Part shown: positions 1,197 through 46,361 of the stretch, piece after piece
How the letters are laid out: every line of letters begins with the position of its first letter
Numbering within the stretch: position 1 is the first letter of the stretch
From: an uncultured bacterium
Lineage (GTDB): Bacteria; Bacillota; Clostridia; Lachnospirales; Lachnospiraceae
Direction of reading: 5' to 3'
DNA: 56,292 nucleotides
Assembly (NCBI GenBank): GCA_947643145.1
Contig: CANRVD010000010.1
Coordinates: 1-56,292 of the forward strand
Program-made: the position numbers and the translations under genes
The notes under the pieces: generated by a model
What the model was told of the DNA's origin: nothing
Database searches by the model: none
The model's input: the letters and a program-made list of their open reading frames with translations, nothing else

Positions 1197-1301
1197 TTAT
1201 AACAAAGGTTACTGTTCACTCCGTGCCCGGTAACAAACGTATTGTATTTGCAATACGTTGTGTTTATCAGCACTGAATACACACATTTTGCAAAAAATAT
1301 G

Positions 1302-1391
1302 AAAAAGTGCACCGACTTCGCTGGTGCGCTAGCAAAAATTCTGAAGGAATTTTTGTTGGCGTACTGCTACATTTTGAGCAGTTTTCTATCC
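1302..1391 (-). repeat. 90-bp dispersed repeat, copy 1 (inverted)
   Basis: Read on the minus strand this runs GGATAGAAAA, then TACGCCAACAAAAA, a hairpin with CAAAAATTC/GAATTTTTG arms, then GCACCAGCGAAGTCGGTGCA followed by TTTTT. The same order is found at 40891-40980 and 46242-46339. This copy is the most diverged. It sits in the deo leader with its terminator-like end pointing away from deoC. Confidence 0.75.
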
Positions 1392-40576: not shown

Positions 40577-40605
40577 TTGTGAAAGTAGCATAATTATGCT
40601 ATAAT
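40577..40605 (+). promoter_or_regulatory. Candidate promoter upstream of the small reading frame
   Basis: TTGTGA (40577-40582), 17 bases, then TATAAT (40600-40605). It could drive the 43-codon frame and the pectinesterase-like gene. Confidence 0.5.
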
Positions 40606-40639: not shown

Positions 40640-40771
40640 ATGAGTAGTGAATTATATGACAAATTTGCAAAAACGAATCGCATCGACCAAGCTATTTATG
40701 AATCTGAGAAGGAAATATTAAATGGAGCCGAAGCAGTGGATGCGGATATTATAAGAAAAAGCATCAAATGA
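40640..40771 (+). CDS. Possible 43-aa protein or antitoxin remnant
   Basis: A 43-codon frame reading SSELYDKFAKTNRIDQAIYE and then SEKEILNGAEAVDADIIRKS. It is helical and charged, and the spacing of acidic residues resembles the C-terminal part of small Phd/YefM- or RelB-like antitoxins, but no toxin is adjacent. No good ribosome-binding site precedes the ATG. It may be a decayed fragment. Weak call, kept because codon content looks coding. Confidence 0.35.
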   Translation: MSSELYDKFAKTNRIDQAIYESEKEILNGAEAVDADIIRKSIK

Positions 40772-40825
40772 TGAATGTATTATCACTTAGGTAACCCGTA
40801 GGCAGTAAAGAAATGGAGGAATAAT

Positions 40826-43800
40826 ATGAAAGAAGAACGTAAATCAAAACAATTTGCGGGGATAGGAAATGCTTTGGTGTTGTTTTTATGGGATAGAAAA
40901 GTTCTCGGTATATGGAGATACGCCAGCAAAAACACTTTAGCGTTTTTGTTAGGGCACAAGCGAAGTCTGTGCCCTTTTTTATTAGCAGTGGCATGGCTTT
41001 TTCTTTCTACGCCTGTGACAGCGGCAGCACCGTTAAATGAACCACTGGATTCCAACAATCCGGTTTATTTTTATGGCGATACGATTGAATACAAAGGGGA
41101 AAGCATCAAACTTGGTGAAAATGCTATCTACATAGATGGTACGTTAAGTGATGAAATGTGTAAACAATATAAGTATGTATACAATGATTTTGTAACTGCT
41201 TATAATGAGGGTGCAATTACAAGCGGCACACAGGACAAGCCAATGAATGTATATCTTGCGCCCTATGTATACTGGATCGATAATCCCGATGACCCGGAAG
41301 TCAGGGAAGGGGTGAATGGAGATAAGGTACCGTACGGTCTTTGGATGAACTGTAGTTATCTTTCTCTGAATGGTCTGACAGATAATCCTGAAAACGTAGT
41401 CTTTGCGGTAAACCGCGGACAGAATGCGGGAGCGATTGGAAACTTTACTATGTTTTTTATCAATGGAACCGGAACCCATACAGAAAACCTTACTATGGGA
41501 AATTACTGCTGTGTGGATTTGAATTATCCATTGAAGCCGGAACTGGGACGTGAAAAGAGACAGACAGCAATTACCCAGTCACAGCTTATACTGACAAATG
41601 GTTCAAAGATTACGGCAGAGAATTGTAATTTTATCAGCCGTTTAAATTCCTGTCCATTTGTAGGCGGAACAAAAATTCTTTTTCAGGACTGTCATTTTGA
41701 ATGTACAGACGATTCCTTACCAACGAGTGCAGTTTACGTAAAATGTGATTTTGATTTTTACAGCTCAAAGCCTTTTTACAATACTACAGGAACCGGTTCT
41801 GTTATGCTTGGCTGTACATTTAATATCAAGCACAATGCTGACCAGTATCTGACTAAGGTTGGTGGTGTGGTTGCCATTATTGATGGTATATTTAACAGCA
41901 GTAAAAAAGACCAGTACATTGGATGGACACCTGACCCTGCACCGTCCCTTCGCTGCTATGCCGGAAATATTACGGTAAATTATAATTATACAGATGAAAA
42001 TGGAGAAGCAAAGCAGGAAACGGTTTCCAATTACCAAATGGATTCCAGACAGCCGTATGATACGGTAGATATCACAGGAAAAGCAGCAATGGATGCATAC
42101 CGGGTAGAGTATAATAATGAAATTATTTATAATGTATATAATCTGCTTAAAGGTGAGGATAATTATGACCCTATGAATCAGAAAACAATTTTGGAAGCAG
42201 CATCTGCGGCAGCAGGAAAAGATTATACAGCCCTTCCAACTATTTTAAGATGCAGCTCAAGTTCGGTTACGCTTTCAAGTGGTGATACGCTTTCTGTTTC
42301 AACAACACCAGGCGGTTTTACAAATACAGAGGATTCTTCACATGGAAAAATCACATGGGAGGCAGAAGATAGTTTAAAGGATTTTATTACCCTGAAAGAT
42401 AATGGGGATGGAACCTGCATACTTACCTGTAAAAATGAAGGACTGACCATTGCAAAGGGAATGATTTACGCAAGGGAAGAAAACGGGCTTTGCTCCGGCG
42501 TTTATATTACTGCTGCACCAGAAACACAGCCGGCACCAAAATTCGTATCAAAACCTGTTATGACATTGCCGGTGGATGGAGTGGTTAACCTGCAGTATTC
42601 GCTGCCAAATGAAGAATTATTATCAGATTATTCAGATATTAAATGGTACCGTTGCAGCGATGCAAAAGGAAAAGAATGTGCATTAATCTCTGTATCTCCA
42701 GAAAATGCACCAAAGAAGTCATATATGTTAAACTATGGAGATATTGGATATTATATTAAGGCAGTCATTACCCCAAAGCAGTTATGCACATATGCAGGAG
42801 AAGAGGTTACGGTTATTTCAGAAAAAACAGTAGCAGCATCTGACGTAACGGCAAGTCCATTTACATATTCTACTGACTTTTCTGATTTTGGTTATAAAAG
42901 ACAGCCACAGATTATACCGGGATTTTGGACCAGAGATGTATACCGGGCCTGGATGACAGAGGAAGAGGGAAAGACAACTTATGCAGAAGGCTGGACATAT
43001 GGACTGGGTGCAGTTGGTTACGGCTCAGAAAATCTCTACGGACTTATGACAATGGACAGAGGTGCAAGATTATTATATACTCCGCCAAAAGGAACTTATG
43101 GGGATATGGAGCTTACCCTTGTTGTAAATCCAGAGAAAAATGCAGGGCAGGGATTTGGAAGTGCCAAACAGTATATGGATATTTATATTAAGTTTGATAC
43201 AGAAACCCTGACTGGTTATGCACTTCGTTTGGAAAGAATCTCAAATCTGGACTGTGGTGTGCAGGCTGCTCTGATAGCTTATGACAAGGAAAATGTAACA
43301 TATATCAGTGATAAAGTTACGACCTCTGCTTATAATGCAGAATGTACCATAGCGCTTTCCATAAAGAATGGTGTTTTCAGCGCTAATATTTCTACTACGC
43401 ACGAGCAGAGTGAAAAGCAAATCAATGCAGGGTTAAAACACAGCGTAGAACTGAGTGCTTCAATTACAGAAAATGCATATGGCGGAACAGGAATCTTATG
43501 TACCGGGACAGCTCCGGTAGGAAACAGGCAGATGTTTAATGCACTGACAGTGAATTGGGATGTACAGGGCGCTAAACTTGATACTCCGGTTCCGGTGAAG
43601 CTTGGGGAAGATGATTTAGATGATTCAGAGGATGGCAGCAAAACGAAGCTGAAAAAGGGTGCGACATTTACTTCTGGAAATGTTAAATTTAAAGTTACCA
43701 ACAATGCCGTAAACGGCAAAGGAACCATTATGGCAGTTGGAATAACGAAAAAGAGTTTAACATCTGTTAAGCTTGCCAATACTATCACTTACAAGGGCGT

Positions 43801-44023
43801 TAAGTACACCGTTACGGGAATTGGAAAAAATGCATTTGCAAAGTGCAGCAAAATGAAGAAAATTACAATTGCCATCACGAAGTTAAAGACTGTACAGAAA
43901 AATGCGTTCAAAGGAATTCATAAAAATTGTGTGATTAAGGTTCCAAAAAAACAGTTTAGCAGTTATAAAAAACTATTGAAAAACAAAGGACAAAAGAGTA
44001 CAGTAAAGATTAAAAAAATGTAA
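40826..44023 (+). CDS. Large secreted pectinesterase-like protein with Ig-like and LRR_5-type domains
   Basis: 1065 aa, exported. The N-terminus (about 1-70) is a signal peptide interrupted by a 31-codon repeat-derived stretch (see 40891-40980). Residues 70-430 look like a right-handed beta-helix related to pectinesterase/pectate-lyase folds: MNVYLAPYVYWIDNPDDPE, LSLNGLTDNPENVVFAVNR, then ILTNGSKITAENCNFIS and ILFQDCHFECTDDSL. Ig-like domains follow (around 480-640), then a concanavalin-like segment (690-920). The C-terminus (960-1065) is a BspA-type LRR_5 stretch: YKGVKYTVTGIGKNAFAKCS and KKITIAITKLKTVQKNAFKG. GGAGG lies 8 bases before the ATG. Likely surface-bound or secreted pectin-active enzyme; catalytic residues were not confirmed. 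Confidence 0.75.
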   Translation: MKEERKSKQFAGIGNALVLFLWDRKVLGIWRYASKNTLAFLLGHKRSLCPFLLAVAWLFLSTPVTAAAPLNEPLDSNNPVYFYGDTIEYKGESIKLGENAIYIDGTLSDEMCKQYKYVYNDFVTAYNEGAITSGTQDKPMNVYLAPYVYWIDNPDDPEVREGVNGDKVPYGLWMNCSYLSLNGLTDNPENVVFAVNRGQNAGAIGNFTMFFINGTGTHTENLTMGNYCCVDLNYPLKPELGREKRQTAITQSQLILTNGSKITAENCNFISRLNSCPFVGGTKILFQDCHFECTDDSLPTSAVYVKCDFDFYSSKPFYNTTGTGSVMLGCTFNIKHNADQYLTKVGGVVAIIDGIFNSSKKDQYIGWTPDPAPSLRCYAGNITVNYNYTDENGEAKQETVSNYQMDSRQPYDTVDITGKAAMDAYRVEYNNEIIYNVYNLLKGEDNYDPMNQKTILEAASAAAGKDYTALPTILRCSSSSVTLSSGDTLSVSTTPGGFTNTEDSSHGKITWEAEDSLKDFITLKDNGDGTCILTCKNEGLTIAKGMIYAREENGLCSGVYITAAPETQPAPKFVSKPVMTLPVDGVVNLQYSLPNEELLSDYSDIKWYRCSDAKGKECALISVSPENAPKKSYMLNYGDIGYYIKAVITPKQLCTYAGEEVTVISEKTVAASDVTASPFTYSTDFSDFGYKRQPQIIPGFWTRDVYRAWMTEEEGKTTYAEGWTYGLGAVGYGSENLYGLMTMDRGARLLYTPPKGTYGDMELTLVVNPEKNAGQGFGSAKQYMDIYIKFDTETLTGYALRLERISNLDCGVQAALIAYDKENVTYISDKVTTSAYNAECTIALSIKNGVFSANISTTHEQSEKQINAGLKHSVELSASITENAYGGTGILCTGTAPVGNRQMFNALTVNWDVQGAKLDTPVPVKLGEDDLDDSEDGSKTKLKKGATFTSGNVKFKVTNNAVNGKGTIMAVGITKKSLTSVKLANTITYKGVKYTVTGIGKNAFAKCSKMKKITIAITKLKTVQKNAFKGIHKNCVIKVPKKQFSSYKKLLKNKGQKSTVKIKKM
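40891..40980 (+). repeat. 90-bp dispersed repeat, copy 2, inside a coding region
   Basis: GGATAGAAAA, TACGCCAGCAAAAAC, hairpin arms CAAAAAC/GTTTTTG, then GGGCACA-9-base loop-TGTGCCC and TTTTTT. It shares 30 identical bases with 46310-46339. It is flanked by TTTTTA direct repeats at 40883 and 40976, and adds 93 bases (31 codons) in frame to the signal peptide of the pectinesterase-like protein. Confidence 0.8.
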
Positions 44024-46241: not shown

Positions 46242-46339
46242 GTATAGGAAATTTTTTGGTATGTGGAGGTAGGCCAACAAGAATTGCGAAGCAATTTTCA
46301 AACACGCTCTAGGGCACAAGCGAAGTCTGTGCCCTTTTT
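46242..46339 (+). repeat. 90-bp-type dispersed repeat, copy 3, ending in a terminator
   Basis: GTATAGGAAA, GGTATGTGGAGGTAGGCCAA, hairpin AGAATTGC-GAA-GCAATTTT, then GGGCACA-loop-TGTGCCC (46312-46334) and TTTTT. It follows the M56-like gene by 32 bases and probably acts as its terminator. Confidence 0.8.
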
Positions 46340-46361
46340 ATAATAAGGGGGAGAAAAAGGC

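Follow-up and report, generated by a model that had tools for sequence, protein, structure and literature searches.

The window analysed here, a stretch of 56,292 nucleotides from contig CANRVD010000010.1 of an uncultured bacterium of the Lachnospiraceae, carries a gene for a secreted protein of 1065 amino acids whose signal peptide is interrupted by a copy of a short dispersed repeat. The gene begins with an ATG downstream of GGAGGA (40815–40820), and the C-terminus of its product has a weak match to LRR_5 that stays below the cut-off. The features of the locus, together with two further copies of the repeat in the window, are as follows.

40826..44023, forward strand: open reading frame of the 1065-aa secreted protein, with no stop through the insert, which lies near the N-terminus.
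40883..40888, forward strand: left TTTTTA, read as Phe-Leu codons, the presumed target tract.
40889..40975, forward strand: body of the element, 87 nt, TGGGATAG...GTGCCCT.
40893..40980, forward strand: covariance-model match in the insert, 104.2 bits.
40894..40900, forward strand: core TAGAAAA (TARRAAA in the family), complementary to TTTTTTA counting G-U pairs.
40925..40950, forward strand: first hairpin, predicted by folding, with covariation in the family.
40951..40975, forward strand: terminator hairpin predicted by folding, with an 8-bp outer stem, -13.4 kcal/mol.
40976..40981, forward strand: right TTTTTA, presumed duplicate of the target; with the T at 40975 it gives a T6 tail.
1301..1389, reverse strand: further copy of the repeat, found with the covariance model, 87.4 bits.
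46244..46340, forward strand: further copy, 62.1 bits, 3′ of an M56-peptidase gene; the second terminator copy of an earlier note on this DNA.

The two tracts are spaced 93 nt apart, so the insertion amounts to exactly 31 added in-frame codons. The earlier note had described TTTTTA direct repeats on both sides of an element at 40891–40980. Both repeats are present (40883–40888 and 40976–40981) and the in-frame insert is real; its limits are better drawn as the 87 nt between the tracts (TGGGATAGAAAAG...TGTGCCCT, 40889–40975) plus one presumably duplicated TTTTTA. Upstream of the gene, a 43-aa open frame (MSSELYDKFAKTNRIDQ...) occupies 40640–40771 on the forward strand, and 5′ of this frame there is a promoter-like site at 40577–40605 that scores not above chance.

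That the insert is a dispersed repeat, as had been claimed, is borne out by a DNA search (40 of 52 candidates scored) of the window's own genome, G000, a draft that is 84% complete: 45 matches at E ≤ 1 were found, the query included, and the nine that follow the window copy share 81–89% identity with it across 86–99 nt. At E ≤ 0.1, a covariance model made from 32 copies gave 104 hits for G000 and 129 for a second genome, G004, with 150 candidates scored in each (150 of 1726 in G000) and with some copies entering twice, once per strand. One of the 38 rows of an earlier set, L006 (2985–3093), is not a real copy and was excluded from the model. Three contigs of G000 end inside copies (C7 and C106 at their start, C35 at its end); the repeat thus breaks the assembly, and its copies are probably undercounted. 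Among 41 genomes (the window's own, 24 of the genus and 16 of the order), a DNA match at E ≤ 1e-3 occurs in seven, all of them within the genus, and in a sample of 200 genomes from the whole family, screened under stricter filters at 22 scored candidates each, matches at E ≤ 1e-6 occur in two, G000 and G046, the latter from another genus. No match to the repeat was found in the 'plasmids' and 'phages' sets, the 28-base terminator pattern has no exact match in viral_contigs, and an Rfam scan of the window returned no family at the gathering cut-off. Unless stated otherwise, copies are counted below as 51 from G000 and 38 from G004, 89 in total, drawn from 77 and 87 rows; duplicates of one place, echoes on the opposite strand, rows that were cut or weak, and every row of G008, G011, G020, G021 and G024 were excluded.

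Copies of the repeat share one layout: a left T-tract, a few variable bases, the conserved core TARRAAA, the first hairpin, the terminator hairpin and a second T-tract. The hairpins vary among copies with their pairing kept, and at least one two-sided change is seen in 5 of the 15 predicted pairs. In 80 of the 89 copies the core pairs fully with TTTTTTA, G-U counted; its partner could be either the left tract or the U-tail. The same core also heads other modules in G000, which contain different hairpins (AAGAACGC..GCGTTCTTC; AGGTTTG..CAAACC) and again a T-tract (L167–L169 and L171, the last cut by a contig end), and the repeat is therefore a member of a modular family. Terminal inverted repeats are absent: of 15 bases, 4 agree between the two ends of the window copy and a mean of 3.2 over 88 copies, against about 3.75 by chance, so that this mark of a MITE in the strict sense is missing.

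The terminator form attributed to the window copy is present, with a G+C-rich hairpin, AGGGCACA..TGTGCCCT, and a run of T6 directly after it (40951–40980); at -13.4 kcal/mol its strength equals the median of 88 copies. For the whole 103 nt at this copy the folding z is -2.76, with 5 of 200 shuffles equally good. A simple terminator scan did not list the hairpin because its loop limit was 3–8 nt, and the 8-bp stem encloses 9 nt.

Two of the 89 copies examined are real in-gene copies, the one in the window and a second, L137, at 66867–66951 of contig C4 of G000 on the reverse strand. The gene that holds L137 encodes an ApbE-like lipoprotein, which matches NF007774 with 119.5 bits against a cut-off of 498. 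Its product reads MRHRTGKKRMFL, then 31 repeat codons, then LLFAILVTGVLGC, with a lipobox 3′ of the insert, and the copy sits where the core of the signal peptide begins. The tracts, TTTTTG on the left and TTTTTA on the right, are again 93 nt apart, and the reading phase is that of the window copy, with the T-tract read as Phe-Leu. Identity to the nearest other copy is 87.8% for the window copy (rank 26 of 51 counting from the most diverged) and 81.7% for L137 (rank 7 of 51); the open frames through both suggest use, without amounting to evidence of selection. A long frame had been flagged for five of the 89 rows, of which the three false ones belong to L015 (two rows) and L099, whose genes start 3′ of the copy; these genes are presumably lon and an ABC transporter. 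A peptide search of 28 genomes of the genus gave at least six matches with an open frame of more than 150 aa. Those in the window and L137 hold, and the other four listed fail: L015 and L099, G004:C127, whose gene starts 3′ of the copy, and G011:C232, which has a stop directly 5′ of the copy.

Orthologues of both proteins show what the leaders look like elsewhere. Among 397 family genomes, 10, its own included, match the window protein at E ≤ 1e-8, and an additional orthologue, L095, came from genome_contigs, its best segment being 56% identical. L095 and L086 have ordinary signal peptides and L085 a plain hydrophobic leader, all without the insert; no clear leader could be read in L087–L092, and the covariance model found no copy of the repeat where the gene begins in the ten orthologue loci of this protein. 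For the ApbE-like protein, matches at E ≤ 1e-40 occur in 42 of 61 genomes, its own included, and 20 loci were read (L189–L208, L189 being the gene itself); the insert is absent from the leaders of all 19 others, among which a lipobox is not found throughout and long n-regions occur in some (L196, L206). Across the 31 orthologue loci of both proteins, full copies were found in the two own loci alone; a weak covariance match in L202 (139–207, 32.6 bits) lies about 1.3 kb off the ApbE-like gene. The comparison that the earlier note had proposed thus gives uninterrupted leaders wherever these are readable for the window protein (L095, L086 and L085), and the picture that would have spoken against an insertion, namely the same residues in all orthologues and no similar repeat elsewhere, is not what is found.

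These comparisons also bear on a trivial origin, in which assembly joined unrelated pieces at the repeat. Such joins are conceivable in a draft with contigs that begin or end in copies (C7, C35 and C106), but in both genes the 5′ flank supplies the start of a signal peptide and a ribosome-binding-like site, the 3′ flank continues the hydrophobic core in frame, and the joined flanks give ordinary, orthologue-like leaders. An artefact is accordingly very improbable.

Removal of the 31 codons restores an ordinary signal peptide in the window protein, as the earlier note had expected, in that the joined flanks resemble the leaders of the orthologues. Averaged over the best 12 residues, hydropathy is 2.97 when the flanks are joined, against 2.38 in the presence of the insert (and 2.41 in L095); in the L137 protein it is 2.95 with and without the insert. 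With the insert, 48 residues rather than 17 precede the core in the window protein, at a charge of +7 instead of +2; in the L137 protein the figures are 42 rather than 11 residues and +13 instead of +5. The insert chiefly extends the n-region, and in the window protein the core is also shortened. The earlier note had expected the insertion to change export. Since the insert leaves a hydrophobic core on its 3′ side, export may instead persist, with an n-region that is longer and more basic.

The T-tracts on either side of a copy offer a view of how the repeat is inserted. In 88 of the 89 copies (50 from G000 and 38 from G004), the left and right tracts of the same copy agree at a mean of 6.273 of 8 positions, against 6.024 (sd 0.063) in 20 000 permutations; the p-value of 5e-5 is a guide only, the copies being related and partly tandem. 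Each genome taken alone gives agreement as well (G000, p = 0.005; G004, p = 0.011). The base that follows the T-run could be read on both sides in 79 copies, with left and right in agreement as A/A in 57, G/G in 4 and C/C in 4, and in disagreement in 14 (C/A 5, A/G 4, G/A 2, A/C 2 and G/C 1); tract agreement is absent or doubtful in 15 to 18 of these 79. L137 itself, with TTTTTG on one side and TTTTTA on the other, speaks against exact duplication. Because tracts of the same copy match above chance, the repeat probably duplicates a T-tract target, and the duplicate would supply the U-tail of the repeat's own terminator. No empty site was seen at the DNA level for any copy.

The same tracts could instead be a recognition motif, the element landing 3′ of TTTTTA and carrying its own right TTTTTTA in the manner of IS200/IS605. 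Single-strand transposons of this kind carry their cleavage sites in such a manner, and the TTTTTA found at either end of most copies, the hairpins close to the ends, the complementarity of core and tract in 80 of the 89 copies and the absence of terminal inverted repeats would all suit them. An invariant right end, however, would not predict tracts that co-vary within copies, and no Y1 transposase, by which an IS200/IS605-derived (REP/RAYT-like) repeat would be recognized, was found in G000 (84% complete), G008 or G021. We therefore regard the recognition motif as unlikely and duplication of the tract as the better reading. The single Y1 transposase of G004 was considered as a source and rejected, with no convincing core at its locus. 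Ten further regions of G000 held no longer relatives with the same ends, consisting of other short core-headed modules and unrelated sequence; in the parts examined, neither a transposase (searched for as the Y1 family) nor a larger same-ended relative was found.

The position of the copies is also distinctive. Of 69 copies with a left tract of at least T4, 19 tandem-like ones were removed with a motif filter, and in 22 of the remaining 50 a hairpin with a folding energy of -10 kcal/mol or lower stands directly 5′ of the left tract. The background in the same loci is 56 of 1031 tracts, to which the tandem filter was not applied, and 18 of 134 for filtered intergenic tracts that follow a same-strand ORF within 200 nt (Fisher p = 2e-5 against 22 of 50). 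This seat behind resident hairpins may reflect targeting or mere survival. Neither in-gene copy has a strong hairpin before its left tract (-4.7 and 0.0). Group IIC introns likewise insert behind terminator hairpins; they differ from the present repeat, which is only about 90 nt long and, in the window, matches no Rfam family at gathering cut-offs. Judged by eye, a hairpin-like stretch and a T-tract also precede the G046 copies L219 and L220. The two arms of a long inverted repeat flank L161 (G004:C34), which seems to sit within a resident hairpin.

The account that we propose begins with a repeat of about 87 nt, ending in a terminator hairpin, that is presumably mobile and non-autonomous. T-tracts are where its copies are found, for the most part outside genes and in many cases right behind a resident terminator-like hairpin, and insertion would probably duplicate the tract, the statistics of the tracts arguing that the duplicate becomes the U-tail of the repeat's own terminator. 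In two genes the tract was TTT TTA or TTT TTG (Phe-Leu) within a signal peptide, and in both the insert is 93 nt long, in frame and open. The peptide encoded by the insert contains many Lys and Arg residues and stops right before the re-created Phe-Leu, so that it would work as an extended basic n-region ahead of the retained core. Taken as a whole, from a short mobile terminator-ended repeat through T-tract duplication and in-frame insertion to a basic n-region and lowered expression, this account is one that we consider probable. A bolder version, which we put forward tentatively and rate somewhat below even chances, sees a transposable terminator that seeks out the T-tracts of resident terminators, copies the tract and so does almost no harm; as Phe-Leu codons where signal-peptide cores begin would mimic that target, signal peptides would become a recurrent entry, in one fixed frame and with a ready-made basic n-region, as in the two cases described here.

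Parts of this picture have precedents. RPE, as the cited account describes them, are short repeats found in frame within host genes, of about 150 bp and in ten families, with many metabolic genes among the hosts and 44 integrations in R. conorii (PMC10969869). The repeat described here is similarly read in frame inside host genes, but frequent insertion of this kind is not seen (2 of 89 copies); both cases are signal peptides and a terminator stands at the end, which sets it apart from RPE as there described. An ERIC/RU-2 repeat forms part of a signal peptide in YPO1552, where by the published description it supplies the protein start, residues 1–30 (PMC2759123); here, by contrast, a leader is interrupted, both of its halves are kept and two loci are affected. 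SPRITE of Streptococcus pneumoniae resemble our repeat as dispersed repeats of terminator form that often lie by the 3′ ends of genes; they are described with an 18-bp stem and a longer T-rich tract, and no duplication of their target could be established (PMC3049150). The long stem and long U-rich tract of SPRITE, so described, are not found here, where the outer stem has 8–10 pairs, the tract is usually T5–T7, a conserved core and a first hairpin precede the terminator, and the T-tracts of the same copy agree. In open-licence papers nothing specific to this repeat was found, also under other names. What is new is the combination of a T-tract target with signs of duplication, a frequent seat behind hairpins, and two in-frame signal-peptide insertions of equal length and the same phase.

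The predicted terminator of the window copy, which lies about 125–155 nt into the gene, should cut expression by a fixed share. The earlier note had gone further and read it as a translation-dependent attenuator, which transcription would pass only with a ribosome close behind. The placement of a hairpin and T6 in a translated stretch 125–155 nt past the start codon fits such a device, yet the same terminator occurs in intergenic copies without a leader peptide, and Bacillota are classed, at phylum level, as runaway transcribers in a 2026 study (PMC13323073). If that holds here, the predicted terminator would act largely regardless of translation. At -7.2 kcal/mol (rank 83 of 88), the L137 terminator is also unlike a kept regulator, its stem having been weakened by two changes relative to its nearest copy, L109, perhaps through selection. 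We thus think an attenuator improbable and a plain, unregulated terminator more likely. In either case, the window offers a natural example, in a Lachnospiraceae host, of an intact terminator-form sequence inside a gene that is still open, and transcription–translation coupling in this host is directly testable there.

If correct, the proposed account would illustrate a way for a small mobile repeat to spread at low harm, by landing on terminators and adding one of its own. It would also give a simple rule for the entry of such DNA into proteins, the T-tract target being equivalent to the Phe-Leu pairs of signal peptides. In 20 of the 83 copies with both tracts, the spacing is divisible by three and the frame in the Phe-Leu phase is open; with so many copies already compatible, a chance in-frame fusion is not hard to obtain. 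On the sense strand of the genes in the window, TTTTT[AG] occurs 32, 43 and 13 times in the three phases, and 5 of the 32 belong to the first 40 codons of a gene, with two of the 5 in the 1065-aa reading frame itself.
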